Source of the DNA: Ectocarpus siliculosus
Lineage: Eukaryota; Sar; Phaeophyceae; Ectocarpales; Ectocarpaceae
Reading direction: 5' to 3'
DNA: 30,356 nt
NCBI GenBank assembly: GCA_000310025.1
Contig: FN649743.1
Coordinates: 530,704 to 561,059 of the forward strand
Within the stretch, counting starts at the first letter, position 1; the number at the start of each line of letters is the position of its first letter. Below the pieces are notes generated by a model that was given only the letters and a program-made list of their open reading frames with translations, did no database searches and had not been told where the DNA came from. The position numbers were made by a program, and so were the translations under genes. Below, one piece after another: positions 12,621-30,356 of this stretch.

Positions 12621-14480
12621 GGTAAGGAAAAATTTTTTTGGGGGGGGAAAAAGAGGAAAAAAATGGCCCCCCCAAAATTTTTGGGGGGGGGTTGATTTTT
12701 TTTGTTTTTTTTTGAAAAAAAAAAAANNNNNNNNNNNNNNNNNNNNNNNNNNNNNNNNNNNNNNNNNNNNNNNNNNNNNNNNNNNNNNNNNNNNNNNNNN
12801 NNNNNNNNNNNNNNNNNNNNNNNNNNNNNNNNNNNNNNNNNNNNNNNNNNNNNNNNNNNNNNNNNNNNNNNNNNNNNNNNNNNNNNNNNNNNNNNNNNNN
12901 NNNNNNNNNNNNNNNNNNNNNNNNNNNNNNNNNNNNNNNNNNNNNNNNNNNNNNNNNNNNNNNNNNNNNNNNNNNNNNNNNNNNNNNNNNNNNNNNNNNN
13001 NNNNNNNNNNNNNNNNNTGTGTGTTTTGTTGGGGGGGGGGGGGAGAGAGGCAGACAGAGAAAGACAAACATAGATATATGCCGGTGAACCAACGGGCTGG
13101 CGCAGACCCTGAAACACAAAAAAGGACACAAGCAACGAACGCACGGCGCACCACCAAAACCCGCCAGCCTGACTGCTGCTTACGTCCGCACGACCAACAA
13201 AATCGACTCTCACATGGCGACAGACCACTTCGCAGCGATCCACTCCCCCAGCTGGTCGCACTCGGCCTTGCTGGCGAACGTCATGTCGACGGCCTCGTTC
13301 TTGTGCACAAGGCTGAGACTCCGCTCGAGGATTTCCTTTTTCATCTTCTCGTTGCCTGTATGCACGCACACCCAAGGTTTGTTTCAGTAAGCAGCGTAGA
13401 ACCAAGCGCGGGGCATGCCGTTACCGCAAAGCTTGAAGGCTGAGTGCAGCGAACAACCAAGGCGTGGCGTGCCGTTCCCGAAAAGCTTTTAGGATTGAGC
13501 AGCACAGAAGTAAGGCGTGGTGCATAGAGCCAAGGCGTGGCAGGCCGTTACCAAAAACTGGTAATACTCGTACTATACGTGTACTACCAAATATACTTTA
13601 AGCAGCAGTAGCAACAAGAACAAGCAGCAACACGAAATCAACAGAGGCAACATGCAAGCAAACTGCAACAAAAGAAGGTGGCAAAACAAGCAATCAACGG
13701 ACAGACTCACCCTTGGAAAGGTGCTTCACAGAGCGCAGCAGGAAGGACGTGTGGGTGGAGCTGGAGCGCTCGAGCTCTCCCACCTTAAACACGTGCCGAA
13801 ACTCCCGCTTCACGAGCCCGAACAGGTTCGAACTAAAAGGCGAAGAACGCCGAGCGAGCGAGCGAGCGAGTGAGCCCAAAACAAGTTCGCGCGTGTGTGT
13901 TTGACGCAAAGAAACCAGATGGTGGAAGAGGACGACGACGAGAAGAAGCAAAGAGGCGGCGGGGTCGGGTGCGAACGCGGGAACAAATGCAAAACAATTA
14001 ACAAAAAAATACAGACCGCGTCATCAGTCGCGAACCTGGGATGAGAAAAAACCTCGGGGCGAAAACACAACGACAGTTGAAAAGCCTGGCCATACGAACA
14101 CGTGCTCAGAGAATTATCCTAAACTACATAAATAAGACCTATGTATGTAGTCGCTGTTCGGGGTAACCTAACCCACAGACAGAGGAAATGAGAAACGAGT
14201 AGCCTCGGTCCCCAAAATCAGACGTTTCTAACCAACAAACGAAAACGAAAACCACCACGCGCACAGGTGAGAGTTGGTCTCAATTTCGTTCTCTCTCTGT
14301 GGAAACAACAAAAGGAAACGAAAGACAAAGGGGGGGGGGAGGGGGGGATCCGTGTGTTCCTCCTCACCCATGAGCCTGCACAACGATCTGCATATCCCCT
14401 CCCGGAAGCTTCTCCAGACCGATGTTGCCGTCCGCCACTTTTCCCGAGCTCACGTGGAGCTTCACCCTGACGGGCTTGTC
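6889..14480 (-). CDS. Putative PH-like domain protein with very long disordered C-terminal tail (6 exons seen; 5' end uncertain)
   Basis: Exons on the minus strand: 14480-14368, 13832-13711, 13355-13214, 12568-12312, 11447-11308, 9315-6889. Donors are GTGAGG, GTGAGT, GTGAGA, GTGAGT and GTACGT. Every junction keeps frame: GG|T, G|GC, AT|G, T|CG, then phase 0. The visible CDS is 3201 nt (1066 aa to a TAG). Residues about 1-126 resemble a pleckstrin-homology fold, with strands VRVKLHV and MQIVVQAHG, then SLSLVHKNEAVDMTFASKAE and the closing Trp helix LGEWIAAKWSVAM. PH domains usually bind phosphoinositides or proteins, but this call rests on pattern only. A basic linker (about 150-175), a helical segment LDAKTKAKLEEDLL and DAHELVLYFSELKGF follow. 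Residues about 280-1066 are Gly/Ser/Pro/Arg/Gln-rich with many RSP and SP sites. The family is not recognised. The start exon may lie upstream (see 15693-15725). Confidence 0.7.
9435..9510 (+). mobile_element. LINE 3'-tail fragment
   Basis: Contains GGATGCGAGGTCAACGGTC followed by TAACGACTACGGCATGCACG and a GAGTATGTAC end. It matches the tail of the 27-kb LINE fragment but lacks the oligo-C run. It lies in the last intron of the PH-like gene. Confidence 0.7.
10300..10410 (+). mobile_element. LINE 3'-tail fragment with oligo-C end
   Basis: CGGCGTGCTCCGTCCCGGTC, then GGATGCGAGGTCAATGGTC, TAACGACTACGGCAATGCAC, GAGTA and a run of about 19 C broken by one T. It has the same order as the copies at 26930-27036 and 27840-27925. 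Confidence 0.8.
11055..11175 (-). mobile_element. LINE 3'-tail fragment (inverted)
   Basis: The reverse complement reads GGTAACAACGCTCCGTCCTC, CGAGGATGCGTGGTCAATGG, TCTAACCGCT, then GAGCACGCCCCCATCC. This is the closest match to the tail of the LINE fragment at 27830-27925. It lies in an intron of the PH-like gene. Confidence 0.75.
11505..11770. repeat. Tandem repeat, 114-bp period
   Basis: The block CACCGAGGACTC.TGTTGCTC + CTAACCGAACTGCG.CAGT recurs at 11591 and 11705, a spacing of 114 bases, each followed by a related AAGGACACCA.AAT segment. Down to about 11950, shorter degenerate units of the form CCCCGCTT.. AGGACACC continue. The whole array lies in the intron between 11447 and 12312 of the PH-like gene. 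Confidence 0.75.
12590..13041. other. Assembly gap with low-quality flanks
   Basis: N run from about 12727 to 13017. The flanks are dominated by stuttered homopolymers: 28 G at 12592-12619, T/G/A runs up to 12726, and about 13 G after the gap. These look like sequencing artefacts around a difficult G-rich tract. The gap falls in the intron between exons 13355-13214 and 12568-12312, so no coding sequence of the PH-like gene appears to be lost. Confidence 0.85.
13402..13562. repeat. Short tandem repeat, about 55-73 bp units
   Basis: Units beginning CCAAGGCGTGGC.TGCCGTTA at 13402, 13457 and 13530, the first two followed by CGAAAAGCTT-type sequence and a GAGC/GTGCAGC segment. They lie in an intron of the PH-like gene. 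Confidence 0.65.
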
Positions 14481-21813: not shown

Positions 21814-22616
21814 CTATCGCCTGTTTCCTGTTGAGGTCGTTTCGTCTTCTGCCTCTAGCTCGAGCAAGATGCTCTCCAACTCCTCTCGGGAGCACCCGAC
21901 TCCTTGCTCCCATGCCCCCTCCCCCTCCCCGCCCCCAAAACCAGCATCGCCCACAGGGTCTCCAAGGCTCTCGCCGCCGCCGTCCTCTTCCTTCGGCGAC
22001 CCCACCGATGCTTGCCGCTGGATCCCGTAAACCGCAGCTGACAGCTCGGCGGCCCTCAAGCCACCGCGGGTCACGGCTTCCCCTCCGTGACTTTCCTCCC
22101 CCCCGGGTGAACCACCGGCGCCGTCGCCGTCGCTGCCGCCGCCGCCGCCGCCGCGGCCACCCGCGGGCTCCCACAGCGCTGCGACCGCGCGCTTCAGGGC
22201 TGCGCGGTGCTCGGGCGCGAGAGTACCGCGCCCGTGCCTTTCCCGTCCCCCCGCCCGACCCCCCTCTTTCGTTGTTGCGGCGTCTACTCCTGCTGCTGCT
22301 GCTGCTGCTGCTGCTACGGTTGCGCTATCCTCGGCATCGCCCCTTCTTCCGTCAGCGGAGGTGGTGGTGGCATCAACGGGGACGCCTTGCCGTGCTTCCC
22401 CGGGCGTATAGCCCGGCACCGCGTCGTCTGATGCCTGTCGCATCCCATCGTCGTCGTCGTCTTTCTCTTCTCTTACTTCCGCCGCTTCTTCCGCCGCAGC
22501 TGCAAGGCGGGCGGTGGCAGCAGCGCCGCCGCCGCCCGCGGCGAACGCCTGGTACCGCTGGAACGCCCCTGTTGCCTGCACTCGATGGAGGCTGGCGCCC
22601 GCGTGGTCATCAACCC
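21814..22616 (-). other. Last exon of the proteasome-like gene: expanded C-terminal region
   Basis: 266 residues, where a typical alpha subunit has about 100 after this point. Start: GVDDHAGASLHRVQATGAF and QRYQAFAAG, aligned to the canonical GVDxxGPxLFxxDPSG..xxxxAxAIG. Then come poly-Ala, EEKDDDDD, poly-Gly and acidic stretches. Recognisable islands are APEHRAALKRAVAALW (position of the helix after the T.x.A element), LRAAELSAAVYG (position of the xIELATV strand) and the terminal SREELESILL. Insertions between conserved islands, rather than a simple tail, explain the extra length. Confidence 0.65.
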
Positions 22617-25600
22617 CTTGAGGCGCGAAAGGGGCGGGCGGTAGAGAGCGGCAGGAGGAGAGTTGCCGGGAAACCTTTCTACAACGCAACGTTAACAGTC
22701 TCAATCGGAACCACGAGACGCACAAAAGAACCGCCTTCCGGGCCGTCTACGCACCCCCGTGTACTGTAGGTCGCGAGAGATACCTGGACCGTTTTTCAAC
22801 GCTCGTTTTTTTTTTTTTTTGTCTTTATTTCAAACCAGCGCTCACAGCACTAGTGCCGTTTACTCCAACCCGCCGTCACACAGAAGAGCCCCTCTCTACC
22901 CTCCCATCCTGCGGTACTTTGCCTTCGATTTTTAATGCGAGAAGAGTTCATTCAGCACTCTCTTCCCTCTGTGCACACACACACCAGCGCTATCCACTAG
23001 GCCAGGAGCGGAAGCGAGAGAAAAACTCACTTCGCAAGAAAAGCTCGTTGCGCAGGGATTCGAACCCCTGACCTGACCTCTAGAAGGTTTCGAGGATACC
23101 AACTAGACCACCGGGGCGATTGCTCTGCAGCGAATCCGGCGGCGGTGCCGAAAAAATGTTTCGTTTGACTCCGTCCCAACGACGACATCTTCCCGAAAAC
23201 ATACCATGTGGTTTTGTCATCGTCTTTGTCGTGGAGCAATCGAGATTTTCAAATCCGTCCAGGGGGTGTGGTACCTAACGTCATGCAACCTACGGTAGTC
23301 GTTCTCGTCGTTACCCTCACCTCCAACTAGGATGTCGACAGCAAGAGGCCGCTTGCCTCCGCGCGTAGTGCAGGAATGGATGAGGTCGGCGAGTCGCCTG
23401 GGGACGGGGAAGCGAAGAGGAGGGTTCAAGATCTTGGAACTCGTTTGTGCCACGAAGGAAGTATCATCCCATCTACATCATGGAAGGCTTTCGGCCTCAT
23501 TCCCCGCAGCCTGGGCCCGGGGACACCAACACACACAAGAGCGGTCGGCGCCCTTCCTCTCTCCCCCCCCGCCCACTCGCCATGCCCACCCCAACCTTCC
23601 TCCTCCCAAATCAACCGACCAAAGTTCCACACAACCGCGCGCTCCTGCTGTGTGTTATTCCATTTTCACCTGCTCAGCATCGGGCAGGGCATCGGCCCCC
23701 CGTAAACGAAGCGGTGCTCCGAGCACCACGTTCGAGCGCAGTCCACGACGTATTGGATGTCGCTGCGTAGCCTGGGGGGCAGAGCGACCAGCACACACAC
23801 ACACCGACAATAGAAGGAAAAGGGAAACGCATGGTCAAAATCGTTACTGAGGGAGAGCGAACGATCGACTCAACGGAGGTCGGGGGTTCACCCATGTACT
23901 TGAGTCTCCGCGTGCATCGCTTTTCTGGGATCAAGTATCCCTTCACACCACCCGCCCGAATGACGACGACAAGGTCATTGTGATGCGGTTTCGAGTTCGA
24001 AGACCGGTTTCATGTGGTTGCAGAATGTCCGCTTTACGAAAGGTACTGAGCTCGGGAAAGTAGAAGGAAGTCACAGAGAGGACTTTGAGGCATGGAGTAG
24101 CCGGGAGAAGACGGAAGCTATTCTGGGGTAAAGAGGTGGGCTGCAAAATCGGGAAGTGATATACAGTACTGGGCCCGCTATCGTGCCGGTATGTGCCCAG
24201 AGATAATATCGGCACTATTGAGGGCACCGGCACTAATCAGAATAGTGCCTCAATAGTGCCGATTCGCACTATTGAGGTTTCGAATATCCCTCAATAGTGC
24301 CGGTCCGGCACTATTGAGGAGATGTTTGATTTCATGCTGTGGCGCTCATGCGTTGCGGCGCTAGCAGAGTACGAAATGGATCAAACTTGGTGAAGGTCTA
24401 CTTGTATCGTGGGCGTAGGCATCCTTTCTCGCGACAAGTATGGTTCCCCCCTGTCGCACACACAGAGGGCGAGTTGTAAAAAAATATTACTTGCATGTTG
24501 CACCGTTATTTTCTGCCTGCCTCAGCACATGAACTGTACTGCACACCCTGAACTGTCGAAACTGCTGTTGACGGCAAGATGCTTGTAAAGCTCCCGTTCG
24601 TACAGAGTGGACGAAGCTACATCTCAGCCCTACAGCCCCTCCTTCGATGTTGCAAGATACAAAAGACAAAACAGAACAAGAAACACGACAGGAAGCGCAC
24701 TGCAAGAAAACAAACAATCAATACTACTGCACTACAGTTGTATCTCCCCCCCCTCACTACGTCGCGACACTGGAGTGTCTGCCTGGCGTACCCGCTTCGA
24801 TGTTGCAAGAAAAAAAAAAAAAAACTACAAGTATACGACAGGAAGCGAACCGCAAGAAAAAGAAACAACCATGAACTCTACGTCACGACAAATTCTCTCA
24901 TGTCTGCCTGGCGCACCCGCCTAGCGGAATGCGCTGCGATCATCGACATCTTCGCTTTCGTTAGGTAGAACGCCGCGTCTCCGTTGCCACTGTCCTCTGC
25001 CGCCGCTTCCAGGGCGCCGAAGTGAGACGACAGTTCTTCATAACCCGGTGGCGAACGTGGGGCACGGCGCTCGCGCCCCGTGTTCTCACCGCCGCCGCCC
25101 TGGTCCTGTTCGTCCTCCTCGGCGTTCTCGCAAAGGGCCCTGATTTCCTCCATGCCCTCCTTGATGGCCTCCTTGTCGACGCTACCAGCCTCGCCATGAA
25201 GTCTCACGCTCTGGATCTTGTTGCGCTTCACGAAGTTCTCCGCCCACCTCTCGCCAGCCTTGAAGTCCTCCACCCTCTCCCTCACTGCTGCAGAAGTTGC
25301 GGTGTCAGCCAGCAGGGTGGCCCTCGCAGAACGGCCGAAGCTTCGAAGGATATCGCGTGTGACGGGCATCTTGGCCTTCCGGGCTTTGTCGAGTAGATCA
25401 AGAGCTATCTCATCGACCTGCCGCCAAAAAACCAGTAAACAACGCAGAGAGTGCAAAAGATCGAACGGTTAGTTTCGAACGCAAGCATGCTAATCTACAC
25501 TGCGCGGCGCGGGCAGGCGGACGACGCGTACCCTGCAACACTAAGCTCACACGTTCGAGTATTGTTCCCAATTGTGCACTAGTGTGACGAACACTTGGAC

Positions 25601-28600
25601 AAAAATGCGGCAGGTACAAACAAGAAGCGCTGCCGTGTTGTAGTAATTTACTGGTTTAAAATTGAAAAGCGGGTGTGTGCGAGAGCACAAGGAACGAATG
25701 AACAATGAAAGCGGAGATGAAAGAAGAAAAATGAGAGACAAAAAAAAGGAAAGAAAAAACCCGAAAAAAGACAACAAAAAGGAGAAAGAAAGACGAAAAA
25801 AAACGAAAAAATTTTGGACATCCAGCAGCGAACGAACCAGGCTCGAAAAAAAAAAGGCCGGCAAAACAAAATGGCGGGGGAAGCAACCCAAGGTCACAGC
25901 ATTGCATGTAGGGCACCTCCGGAAAATCTCCTTTGCGTGCAGTTTTCTGGCTGCCGCAGCCTGCAGCAGTTGCTGTCTCCACCTTCTGCCGGCCAGCCTT
26001 CACGGTCCCAATAAATCGAAGCGAGCACTCTAAGCGGTCTGCAATCTGTGCGTGAGACACCTTCTAATCCAGCATCTTCAGAATCTCGAGCTTCTTGTTG
26101 TTGTCAGGCCGCGCACGAGAACCCGTTCCCTTCTTGCTTCCCCCACTCGTCTGCTTCTGGCGTTTAGATGGTCCCGCCCCAGCACCCTCAGCTGGTGTCG
26201 CTTTGCGCTTGCTAGTCCTGGCGACACACGTGCTGCAGATGCGGTGCTGCTCGTTTTCCTCAAACACGCTGCCCGTGGAGCCGCCCGCCACATCCTCCCT
26301 TGCAGGGGTGGCCATGAGGGGGTTGCGGCGTCCTGTCTTGTTGAAGGCACAGTTCACCTTCCGCACAAGGCATGGTGCGCCTCTGCGTAGAACTGTTCGG
26401 GTCTGCAGCAGCACGTGTACCCTCTGTGTTGCGTGTGTCCGCTGTCTTGTGTGTGTGTGTGTGTGAACCGGCACTATTGCGGGGCGCCGTGGTGCCCAAT
26501 CGGCACTATAGAGGGGCCGCCCTCAATAGTGCCGAACCGGCACTATTGAAGGCGCTTTCTGTGTCCAGAGATTTTACCGGCACTATACCGGGCATCGGCA
26601 CTATTCAATCGGCACTATAGCGGTCCCAGTACTGTATAGATAGGATAGGGAAAATGTTGTTGAGCCACCTTTGAAAAAACAGGAAGGAACATGTGGCCAT
26701 TGGTCTCTGTGGGAACAACTCTCCGCCCTCTGGAGGCCGCGCGGTCAATAGTCCAACAGCTAAGGCATACAAAACATTAGTACGCCCCCCCCCTCCCCTC
26801 CCACCCGGCACATCGCTCCGTCCCGGCATTGTAGGGATCTATGGTCTAACGATTGCGGCATGGGTATACATGATCGTACCCCACCCCCCCGAAGACCTCA
26901 CGGCGCTTCGCGCGCTTGGTGATGTGATAGCCAGGTCCGGTGAAAACTCGGCGTGCTCCGTTCCGGCTCAATAGGGATGCGAGGTCAATGGTCTAACGAC
27001 TACGGCATGCACGACAAGAGCACACCGCCCCCCCCCCCTCGGAGAAGTATGGGAAGGGAATAAGAAGGTAGTGAAAGAACTCGAGGAGGCGCAGATGAAA
27101 GCAGCGAAAATCATCCTAGGATGCTCCAAGCGCACAAGTAATGCAGCCGTAAGGGCAGAATTGGGGATCCAATCCCTACGGTCGGGAAGAGACGCAAGGA
27201 AGCTGACATGGCAGTATCGCATGTGCGGGATGGGAGAGGAGAGGTTGCCGAGAATAGTATGGGAGGTGAAGTGGGCAAACAAAAAGAGGGGTAGACAACC
27301 ACGGAATGGGTCAAGGTTGTAGAGAAGGATGGAAGGGGTTAGACATCGACGAAGATGATACGCTGGAAACGGAGGGTCTACAGGGGTTCAAGGAGAAGAT
27401 ATCTGTTGCTTGTGCCGAGAGAGAAGAACAGAATCTAAGGAAAGAAACCAAGGATAAGGAGGGTCTAGAAGTGTGCGGAATGTTGAAAGAAGGAATAGGG
27501 TTCAAGGATTACCTACATGGACCAATGGATGCAGGGACAAAGCTTAAGGTCAAATTCAGGACCGGGGACATAGGCCTTCGAGAACGTCGACGAAGACATA
27601 GGACGGCAGACGACGAAGACGACAAGTTCAAAGCTGGGAAAAATACAAGGGACGTACAGGGAGATGTTTGAGGCATGGAATAGAGAGGAGAGGACGGTAG
27701 CTGTACTGGGGAGTAAGAAGTGGTTTGAAAAGGCGGGAAGGGATATCGTTAGGATAGACAGACTAGGGAAGACATTTTTGAGCCACCTTTGGCAAAGCAG
27801 GAAGGAACGATTGGCCATCGGTGATCGGTTCTGTGGGAACAATGCTCCGTCCTCTCGAGGACGCGTGGTCAATGGTCTAACCGCTACGACATGCAAAACA
27901 TAAGAGTACGCCCCCCCCCCCCCCTTCCAGCCTCACCCGCAAGCAGCGATGCCGACGTGCGTGTCTACCGCCCACACGCCTTCCTGCGGCCCCGCCGCGC
28001 GGCACGAGGACGTCGGGGGCGACGGGTCTCTCGTCACCAGCGCCACGCAGCCCCCCCCGCAGACCCCGAGCACGGTGCGGCCGCGCCGCGTGGCCTCCAT
28101 CGCGTACTCCACCTGGTAGATTCTCCCCTAGAAAAAAAACATTGTATGCATACGCCGGCCAGACCAGGAAAAAAACGGCTGGCATTTGTCATAAAATTCA
28201 GTGAATAGGCTGTTAGAATAAAAAATAAAATCCAGCAGCCGGTTTTCTTCCCGCGCACTGCGAAGACTTCAACACACACCCTTCGACTGCTGCTGTGGTC
28301 TCACTCTATCTCGAAAGGGTAGTTCATTTCTGATTGTATGTATGTATACCTTCTAAAATCGGGGATAGCATGCGTGCGTGCGACACAGCCAGACGGGGCT
28401 CCAACATCCACATGATGCATCTTATAGAGCGTCTTGCATGATACTGCTGTTCTGTTCTTTCCGTGAACGCGGGGGGGATTATATTATTTGCGCGGTCAAC
28501 GCGTTCATCACTACTGGGAGGGAGACGTCCAGTTTAGCGGCGATGTGTGACCGCGAACTATGTATCTCGGTGCAGCGCGAGATGCCTTAGATAGCGGGAG

Positions 28601-29025
28601 TTCTACATCTTGGCACTTGAACCGCCGAACCGGGGCCCTCACGCCTTCACTACCGCTATGCTGGCGATCCCATGTACTCCGCCATATAGTCTGCAAGCGT
28701 GAGATCTCTGCGACAGACGAGCAGCAGCTAGCGCTTGATGTACACTACCTGACCTCTCGTACATGACAAAGAACACAACAATTGCATTCCTCGTGGTTAA
28801 TGTTTCCCCCGACAAAGTAGGGAATCGAACCACACGATTCGCTGCGAATGTCCACACGGAGACTGCAGCAAATTTCAGCCGTGCCGCAGCCTTGCTACAA
28901 CACACCTATTATACCTTTGGATCGTAGCTGAGTATGCTGCCGTCATACTTGCGCTGGCTTGATGATGCCCCGACCGTCGAAGCAGCACACAAAACGCAGA
29001 CGATCTCCAGCAGCAGCAGCAGCAT
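21814..29025 (-). CDS. Divergent 20S proteasome alpha-type protein with N-terminal signal peptide and extended C-terminus (5 exons, 427 aa)
   Basis: Exons on the minus strand: 29025-28915, 28127-27937, 23771-23670, 23397-23321, 22616-21814. Donors are GTATAA, GTGAGG, GTGAAA and GTGAGG; acceptors are TTTCTAG, CCCCCCAG, GTCCCCAG and CGCCTCAAG. Phases agree at every junction and the CDS is 1284 nt. Residues 1-20 are MLLLLLEIVCVLCAASTVGA, a signal-peptide-like leader and the first ATG after an in-frame TAG at about 29149. Then come QRKYDGSILSYDPK and GRIYQVEYAMEA (the alpha-family N-terminal signature), VWAVDTHVGIAACG, EHRFVYGGPMP, RRLADLIHSCTTRGGKRP, and VDILVGGVDDHAG, all in alpha-subunit order (nearest by eye to PSMA4/PSMA5 types). 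The DPSG motif is replaced (VQATGAF). The last 240 residues carry low-complexity insertions before a C-terminal SREELESILLELEAE helix. Alpha subunits are non-catalytic ring formers; a secreted one is not known to me. It may be a neofunctionalised paralogue or a decaying copy. Confidence 0.82.
22762..23297. mobile_element. MITE copy 3, interrupted by a SINE-like insertion
   Basis: The left end CTGTAGGT...ACCTGGACCGTTTTTCAAC and the complement of the right end (CCGTAGGTTGCATG, CCACACCCCCTGGACGGATT) are inverted and flanked by TA. The inner sequence CAACGCTCG (to 22805) continues as ATTGCTC at 23119, restoring the family sequence CAAAGCTCGATTGCTCC when 22806-23118 is removed. It lies in intron 4 of the proteasome-like gene. 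Confidence 0.78.
22806..23118 (-). mobile_element. tRNA-derived SINE-like element nested in the MITE
   Basis: On the minus strand it begins GCCCCGGTGGTCTAGTTGGT (A-box-like TGGTCTAGTTGG). It has a B-box-like GGTTCGAATCC about 40 bases later, a second D-arm-like GGCCTAGTGGATAGCGC, and ends GAAATAAAGAC plus 15 A. The 7-base acceptor arm (GCCCCGG against GCAACGA) cannot pair and the T stem is imperfect, so this is not a functional tRNA. No clear target duplication is seen beyond CG. Confidence 0.65.
23955..24163 (+). mobile_element. LINE-like retroelement copy A, left part (split by DNA transposon)
   Basis: GACTTTGAGGCATGGA...AGCCGGGAGAAGACGG and GGGAAGTGATA match copy B (27660-27750) in order. 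The frame is broken; residues like FEAWSREKT correspond to FEAWNREERT in copy B. A ...HVVAECPLYERY-like reading occurs in another frame. The remainder continues after the transposon at 26635. Confidence 0.7.
24208..24320. repeat. Left subterminal inverted-repeat array
   Basis: Six or more copies of CGGCACTATTGAGG or its complement CCTCAATAGTGCCG, alternating in orientation. Two are joined as CCGGTCCGG palindromes. They are likely transposase-binding sites. Confidence 0.8.
24640..24925. repeat. Tandem duplication, about 150-bp unit
   Basis: CTTCGATGTTGCAAGA... then ACGACAGGAAGCG.AC.GCAAG occurs twice (24641 and 24796). TGTCTGCCTGGCG.ACCCGC occurs at 24776 and 24901. The last unit overlaps the 3' end of the transposon ORF exon. 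Confidence 0.7.
24878..26315 (-). pseudogene. pogo/CENP-B-type transposase, N-terminal DNA-binding part, interrupted by a stop codon
   Basis: From the ATG at 26315: a basic Ser/Lys-rich N-terminus, then KKLEILKML, an in-frame TAG at 26066-26064, and KVSHAQIADRLECSLRFIG, which together form a psq/CENP-B N-terminal helix-turn-helix. An intron follows. The exon 25417-24878 (acceptor TTTTGGCGGCAG) encodes a CENP-B-type second HTH with the hallmark ERWAENFVKRNKIQSVRLHG and EAGS, then an acidic stretch and YEELSSHFGALEAAAEDSGN to a stop. The donor of the first part is not certain. No DDE domain follows inside the element. The nonsense codon splits the first HTH, so the copy is probably dead, or the second exon is used alone. 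Confidence 0.7.
26466..26625. repeat. Right subterminal inverted-repeat array
   Basis: About eight copies of CGGCACTAT(A/T) and its complement, including CCCTCAATAGTGCCGAACC + GGCACTATTGAAGG, matching the left array at 24208-24320. Confidence 0.8.
26635..26792 (+). mobile_element. LINE copy A, right part and 3' tail
   Basis: TAGGATAG, then GAGCCACCTTTGAAAAAACA, GGAAGGAACATGTGGCCATT, GTGGGAACAACTCTCCGCCC and GTCAATAGTCCAACAGCTAA, ending TACGCCCCCCCCC. It matches 27775-27925 base for base with scattered changes and continues copy A directly across the transposon. Confidence 0.8.
26805..26890 (+). mobile_element. LINE 3'-tail fragment
   Basis: GCACATCGCTCCGTCCCGGC, then TATGGTCTAACGATTGCGGCATG, GATCGTACCCCACCCCCCC. 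Confidence 0.65.
26930..27036 (+). mobile_element. LINE 3'-tail fragment with oligo-C end
   Basis: CCAGGTCCGGTGAAAACTCG + GCGTGCTCCGTTCCGG, then GGATGCGAGGTCAATGGTCT, AACGACTACGGCATGCACG and a run of about 11 C at 27027. Confidence 0.8.
27040..27925 (+). mobile_element. LINE-like non-LTR retroelement copy B, degraded 3' ORF fragment with tail
   Basis: The first frame (27071-27322) reads LEEAQMKAAKIILGCSKRTS then NAAVRAELGIQSLRSGRDAR, a pattern seen after the reverse transcriptase domain of non-LTR elements. Shifted frames continue with KFRTGDIGLRERRRRHR and FEAWNREERTVAVLG..WFEKAGRD..RIDRLGKTFLSHLWQSRKE. The reading frame shifts at least twice, so it is inactive. No reverse transcriptase core is present (5' truncated). 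The 3' end is the conserved GGTCAATGGTCTAACCGCTA tail and a run of 14-15 C ending 10-12 bases from the splice donor of exon 28127-27937 of the proteasome-like gene. Confidence 0.75.
28963..29025 (-). other. Predicted secretory signal peptide of the proteasome-like protein
   Basis: The h-region LLLLLEIVCVLCAASTV is followed by a plausible V-G-A cleavage site before SSSQRKYDG. Five Leu codons are a (CTG)5 run. There is no Phe after the cleavage site, so it lacks the ASAFAP-type motif used by secondary plastids; ER or secretory targeting is the simpler reading. Confidence 0.65.
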
Positions 29026-29518: not shown

Positions 29519-29840
29519 ATGTCGACAAGCGTCAACAACGACGTTGAGCACGGCGGGGGGGATGACGCGAGCATGCCGCTGCTCCCTCTGGCGGTAGACT
29601 TTGCGGAGCATACCGTGCAGGCCGGCGACGACGAGCACAAGAGCCGGTACTCCGCCCACAGGGGGTGGGCGTGCGCTTTCAAGGTCAACGTGCTCGTCAC
29701 CGTGTTGGCCGCCTTTTGGTTTGGCTTCGAGGGGCTAGAGGCCCTAGCGAACGACTCCCTCTCTGGGCAGGGGCGCCGGCGGCTCATGCACCACGAGCAC
29801 GGGGATGACCACTCGCACCACCACCACCACGATAACGGCG
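29519..29840 (+). CDS. Histidine-rich single-pass membrane protein, first exon
   Basis: The ATG at 29519 (AAAAG before it, A at -3) opens 107 codons plus 1 nt to a perfect GTAAGT donor at 29841. The first about 52 residues are acidic (VEHGGGDDAS, DFAEHTVQAGDDEH). One hydrophobic segment follows (FKVNVLVTVLAAFWFGFEGL, about 54-73), then RRRLMHHEHGDDHSHHHHHD. A His/Asp cluster just after a membrane segment is common in metal-transport or metal-sensing proteins, but no transporter signature is visible, so function is not assigned. Continuation is unclear. A possible exon at 29984-30037 (acceptor TGTCACACAG) and another from 30154 (acceptor GTCTTTCAG) running to the right edge could follow; the most protein-like frame of the latter (NSISAHLAAGFTLYQEDKD) does not match the phase of the former. 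Confidence 0.6.
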
Positions 29841-30356
29841 GTAAGTCTCGATCGATGAGGTGTCTTTATGTTTATGACTCTGTCGAAGCCGGTGTTTTTT
29901 TTTTGGTTGAAGCAGCCAGCACCGTTTCCCGTACACCGGTCTTTCGGGTCAAAGTTTTTGTTTGTTGTTTCCCTGTCACACAGAGTTGATGATGGCTTCG
30001 GCCCTCTCTCGGAGAAACATACAATACGCATGCTGGGGAAGGTAGTTGAGGCACGGGAATGGCCGTGGCGGTCGAACTTGCTGCTGCATCCGTGCTGTTG
30101 CTGTGGACGCTAAACTGACAAGTGATTCATTCCCACGAAGGCTTGTCTTTCAGAACTCCATTTCTGCGCATCTGGCAGCAGGCTTTACATTGTACCAAGA
30201 GGACAAGGACCGAGGGGGTGTCGCCTGCCAGTTTCTCAATCCCGAACATTCTGTGGTGGCTGAAGCATCGAACACAAAGAAGTGCGCTAGACGTTTCCCA
30301 CCTACCCCCCCCCCCCCCCCCTTCCCGCTGTGCATTGTAACTCCGTGTTTGCCTCA

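Follow-up and report, generated by a model that had tools for sequence, protein, structure and literature searches.

What is a proteasome alpha-type protein doing behind what looks like a secretory signal peptide, and in which compartment would it work? The gene that raises this question lies on the minus strand (21814-29025) of the window, the whole stretch of 30,356 nucleotides of the brown alga Ectocarpus siliculosus analyzed here (C18:530704-561059, within a genome of 189 Mb in 492 contigs), and its spliced model comprises five intact exons that encode 427 residues and end in a TAG stop codon (Table 1). The start codon at 29025-29023 follows an in-frame stop with no ATG between the two and has a G at position -3, and the frame of exon 1 reads MLLLLLEIVCVLCAASTVGA, then SSSQ, then RKYDGSILSYDPK, ending at 28915. 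Exon 1 joins exon 2 in phase 0, with a junction that reads GRIYQVEYAMEA and the acceptor TTTTTTTTCTAG. The earlier note had described exon 28915-29025, its in-frame stop, the first ATG opening on the leader and the phase joining correctly to the base, and was also right about the G at -3; its reading of exon 1 captured the leader and RKYDGS and omitted the SSSQ between both.

Table 1. Features of the window (plain positions), and second-set alpha genes and paired beta genes of the genome (contig labels)
Feature	Position	Strand	Remarks
Putative signal peptide MLLLLLEIVCVLCAASTVGA	28966..29025	-	Hydropathy; cleavage read by -3/-1 rule
Exon 1: leader + SSSQRKYDGSILSYDPK	28915..29025	-	Donor GTATAA from 28914
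Exon 2: GRIYQVEYAMEATRRGRTVLGV...HVGIAACG	27937..28127	-	Donor GTGAGG
Exon 3: (G)LRSDIQYVVDCARTWCSEHRFVYGGPMPCPMLS	23670..23771	-	GT/AG ends, in phase
Exon 4: RRLADLIHSCTTRGGKRPLAVDILVG	23321..23397	-	GT/AG ends, in phase
Exon 5: GVDDHAGASLHRVQATGAFQRYQAFAAG..., low-complexity stretch, C-terminal part	21814..22616	-	In phase; stop TAG
Intron 2, 4.2 kb	23772..27936	-	With mobile-element-like ORFs
Reverse-transcriptase-element-like ORF	around 27071-27903	+	In intron 2
Transposase-like HTH ORF	24878-25456	-	In intron 2
Near-perfect palindrome	24289-24319		In intron 2
ORF MSTSVNNDVEHGGG...	29519-29989	+	One hydrophobic segment, His-rich stretch; ATG 494 bp from alpha gene ATG, divergent; common promoter region possible
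Run of 291 N	12727-13017		
Second-set alpha1	C14:2896355		
Second-set alpha2	C14:1808364		
Second-set alpha3	C368		
Second-set alpha4	C11:4832747		
Second-set alpha5	C1		
Second-set alpha6	C18		Window gene
Second-set alpha7	C4		
beta1 pair	C19 / C11b		Second less like human type
beta2 pair	C5 / C65		Second less like human type
beta3 pair	C100 / C15		Second less like human type
beta4 pair	C26 / C11c		C26 start ordinary-like; C11c start unread, "second" by default
beta5 pair	C16 / C34		Second less like human type
beta6 pair	C103 / C2b		Second less like human type

Profile searches agree with the earlier identification of a proteasome alpha-type protein. On the full spliced protein, PF00227 (Proteasome) scored 98.0 bits against a cut-off of 22.4 and PF10584 (Proteasome_A_N) scored 32.4 bits against a cut-off of 27.7. 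The PF00227 match covers residues 51-213 and profile positions 2-164 of 189, and runs through exons 2-5, whereas the Proteasome_A_N signature spans the exon 1/2 junction and is completed only across both exons (36.0 bits on exons 1-2 without the leader). Exons 1-2 alone reached 16.0 bits with PF00227, below its cut-off of 22.4, and did not fix the alpha type in searches of PDB and Pfam. The full protein matched solved alpha subunits at E 1e-27 and shares all 12 invariant columns of an eight-alpha alignment. Like ordinary 20S alpha6/PSMA1 it has the alpha N-terminal signature and the proteasome domain; unlike it, the window protein has a leader, a low-complexity stretch, far higher divergence and, in the eight-alpha alignment, EG in place of KK, a position that we take to be the lysine pocket for cap C-termini. 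The alpha gate tail retains its YD...P residues, so the gate may still work.

To judge the leader, we located the in-frame stop upstream of the conserved core, took the first ATG that follows it, computed a 10-residue hydropathy peak, and used as background 20,000 random points in the DNA of this genome having a first-ATG leader of 15-80 residues. The window leader peaks at 3.09, at a tail share of 0.0053 of these points, which is consistent with the secretory leader proposed in the earlier note; the leader is very probably genuine, and its hydrophobic, signal-peptide-like character makes entry into the secretory route a likely first step. Signal-peptide cleavage follows a -3/-1 rule, by which the window leader would likely be cleaved after A20 with S next. 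Hydrophobic strings can also arise from translated intron ends, and AGs at 28958, 28954 and 28948 would allow the leader to be an intron, with the true first coding exon lying upstream and splicing in at an AG immediately ahead of CGCAAGTATGAC. The pyrimidine share upstream of the AGs near RKYD is, however, 0.44-0.50 (0.61 for the AG at 29005) versus 0.72-0.89 at the four acceptors of the gene itself, and second-set genes of other types (below) have leaders in the corresponding position, in sequence that is unrelated; on these points we rejected intron read-through, which is very unlikely.

The genome encodes more than one set of alpha subunits. Genome searches scored best candidates only, and gene counts are lower bounds. 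PF10584 gave 16 matches at E<=10 over the genome, of which 13 are alpha genes; the remaining three (E 1.2-6.8) were judged not to be alpha genes. The at least 13 alpha genes divide into six ordinary genes (alpha1, 2, 3, 4, 6 and 7), 53-63% identical to the human type, and a diverged second set of seven, one per type. A genome search for an ordinary alpha5 found none, the best match being the C1 gene and the others exons of other alphas; the sole alpha5-like gene found, at C1:3069925, sits in the leader-bearing set. Spliced models of the six second-set genes other than the window gene all contain an alpha domain.

Hydrophobic leaders occur in all seven second-set alphas. In five, the leader lies in the same exon before the YD/YS start: the window gene, C368 (MARRRKLPHAAIVSVLSAAACLLSAALGA), C11 (MRAPIAVLAVILAARPCMA), C14a (MHYVANAMFLIAFTATTAGS) and C4 (MRVWLLLQLRLLLLCYNQHVAEG). 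The other two appear to acquire it through a phase-matched upstream exon, with a first ATG at MAGPDGLERRRRHVGTP followed by MIAVFVFFYCAMLLSSVSGA in C14b and with MRFTFGVLLLISPGALRVRSVAHV in C1; the donors of these exons are GTGAGC and GTGAGT, and the phase fits the next exon. None of the four readable starts among the ordinary alphas (MSRDSN-, MGDSA-, MARR-, MFRNQ-) has a leader, and two further ordinary alphas (C2, C6) begin in an unread upstream exon and stand outside this count. Fisher's method gave a combined p of 1.7e-5 over eight second-set genes with a same-exon start, a test that left out second-set genes with a leader spliced or possibly elsewhere. Singly, p falls below 0.05 in only four of these eight: beside the window gene, the values are 0.09 (C368), 0.003 (C11), 0.11 (C14a) and 0.10 (C4) for the alphas, three of which thus lie at 0.09-0.11, and 0.026, 0.031 and 0.72 for the second beta1, beta2 and beta3. 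A one-off leader on the window gene was rejected.

Second copies were also found for six of the seven beta types, a lower bound from the genome search; a second beta7 was looked for in the genome and only C6 was found. The second beta1, beta2 and beta5 retain Thr1, Asp17 and Lys33, in what we take to be the standard numbering, with the catalytic residues in one exon in beta1 and beta5 and read across a putative intron in beta2. Leaders lie in the same exon in the second beta1 and beta2 and are reached in beta6 through an exon in matching phase whose donor, GTCAGC, is weak; in beta3, a leader appears only if the third in-frame ATG is used, in place of the first-ATG rule. A splice-aware search found no leader in the 1.9 kb covered at the second beta4 and established no leader exon for the second beta5, for which a hydrophobic candidate exon was seen and a splice match was not found. 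A further PF00227 match (C489:1463023-1463190) was rejected as a proteasome subunit: it is an HslV-like exon, presumably of an HslV gene, so that the genome would carry a bacterial-type Ntn protease gene in addition to the two proteasome sets.

The second beta1 gene (C11:3666601-3668300, minus strand) has an unusual start, in which the leader ...LLVAAAGLVDA directly abuts Thr1 (TTLVAARFDGG). The residue at -1 to Thr1 is Ala, where we take Gly to be usual. Because the leader abuts Thr1 with Ala at -1, signal peptidase could free the catalytic threonine. It is possible, as a tentative proposal drawn from these gene models, that a near-complete second 20S core is delivered via the ER and that its beta1 Thr1 is freed by signal peptidase before assembly, not by self-cleavage. 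If true, the second beta1 would be an instance of a proteasome active site generated by signal peptidase.

We compared the two alpha sets in a tree of 20 rows (seven human, six ordinary and seven second-set sequences; red-algal sequences are absent). Six of the seven second-set alphas group with their own type on starred branches, so that the second set represents the individual types and not one late expansion of a single gene. The window gene groups with alpha6 at 68/91, on a branch of 1.7 that is the longest in the tree and with an odd composition; alpha6 is the only type left over for it in the second set, and the best BLAST match of the trimmed window protein among the 20 rows is ordinary alpha6 (31% identity over 220 positions). 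An alpha paralogue that is decaying or has taken on another role, and that belongs to no core particle, might show just such a branch and composition, together with the loss of the pocket lysines and a large low-complexity stretch, yet it would hardly keep 427 open codons in five exons with GT/AG ends and a PF00227 match at 98 bits, and no candidate other than the window gene was found to fill the alpha6 position in the second ring. On these points we rejected a decayed copy, and consider decay or repurposing highly improbable; the earlier suggestion of an Ntn-fold protein recruited for another job is likewise not supported. In three types, alpha2, alpha3 and alpha7, starred branches unite the human with the ordinary copy and leave the second-set copy outside the pair; the same holds for alpha6, where the placement of the window gene is weak, and weakly for alpha1, while alpha4 weakly shows the opposite arrangement. 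With human and ordinary copies as sisters and the second copy outside, a red-algal origin of the second set gets no support from the tree; long branches could lie behind the outside position.

We also searched the genome for cap and import components. PF16450 gave five matches over the genome, which we take to be five different Rpts with one of six not seen, and PF01851 gave three matches on two contigs. These two marker families give no sign of a doubled 19S base, at a sensitivity that is limited, as the finding of only five of the six expected Rpts indicates. PF02359 identified three Cdc48-type N-domains, one near human p97 and two lower-scoring ones at C11:5445771 and C241:508094, which could be a periplastidal Cdc48 pair; a search for leader exons of the Derlin and Cdc48 genes established none. 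The 87 PF00504 matches, counted exon by exon, indicate a photosynthetic host. Light-harvesting matches on C92, C232 and C488 are clustered and have identical scores (E 7.0e-35 repeated), which points either to tandem amplification in the recent past or to an effect of the assembly.

The ER lumen is an unlikely site for a proteasome. A second 20S core retained in the ER lumen or exported from the cell, and hence a proteasome of the secretory pathway proper as the earlier note suggested, would nonetheless account for leaders that resemble plain signal peptides and for the alpha4-like and beta1-like genes, in which the fold starts within ~0-2 residues of the likely cleavage site with no transit-like stretch; such a stretch is expected for periplastidal import, and its near absence in these two genes counts against that location. 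The window protein, however, ends in ...TTSTGNRR, without a KDEL-like signal, and heterokont signal-peptide subunits are placed in the periplastidal compartment in the passages seen of PMC5070193 and PMC5756292, so that an ER or secreted core is unlikely. In those passages, plastid-bearing heterokonts have a 20S-only proteasome in the periplastidal compartment, imported via a signal peptide (PMC5070193, citing Moog 2011, Stork 2012 and Lau 2016), diatoms have periplastid 20S proteasomes that have lost the cap (PMC5756292), and two SELMA Cdc48 variants are mentioned (PMC5070193). The leader-bearing second set fits this description, which makes the leader very probably real and the "new class" of the earlier note unnecessary. 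We therefore consider it likely that the product of the window gene is the alpha6-type (PSMA1-like) subunit in a second, signal-peptide-bearing 20S core, for which we infer a probable periplastidal site, a possible red-algal origin and leader cleavage.

As far as those passages describe it, the heterokont periplastidal 20S proteasome shares with the Ectocarpus second set nucleus-encoded core subunits with signal peptides, a photosynthetic host and extra Cdc48 copies, and no second 19S base was found here with the two cap marker families. It differs in that location and transit-like part are putative in the second set here, which has a very short leader-fold distance in some subunits and a second beta1 leader that abuts Thr1. 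The heterokont periplastid proteasome is termed "degenerate" in the part seen of PMC5756292, unlike the set found here, in which six beta types have a second copy and all seven alpha types have a gene with a leader. The cryptophyte proteasome is likewise a second proteasome of eukaryotic type and sits in a comparable compartment, if the periplastidal site proposed here is right; in the account given in PMC5070193 it is nucleomorph-encoded with both parts, whereas here the genes lie in a large host-type genome and no second 19S base was found.

A periplastidal core would be reached by the following route. The signal peptide would take the window protein into the ER, and the first residue of the processed chain, if cleavage falls after A20, would be serine and not aromatic; the rule in the passages seen of PMC12136025 and PMC5756292 is that position +1 behind the signal peptide is neither aromatic nor Leu. 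The SELMA translocon, which derives from ERAD (derlin, Cdc48), would then pass the processed chain across the next membrane into the periplastidal compartment, which surrounds the plastid and was once the cytosol of the red alga. There the subunits may form a 20S core without caps, which would degrade unfolded proteins and could be supplied by a compartment-specific Cdc48.

The window gene is thus best filed as a further, presumably periplastidal, member of the kind of proteasome known from heterokonts. What appears to be a single odd gene would occupy one position in a second proteasome that is nearly complete and has a gene for every alpha type, and this makes testable how a compartment with a ubiquitin-dependent import channel may contain a protease that spares the proteins imported there.
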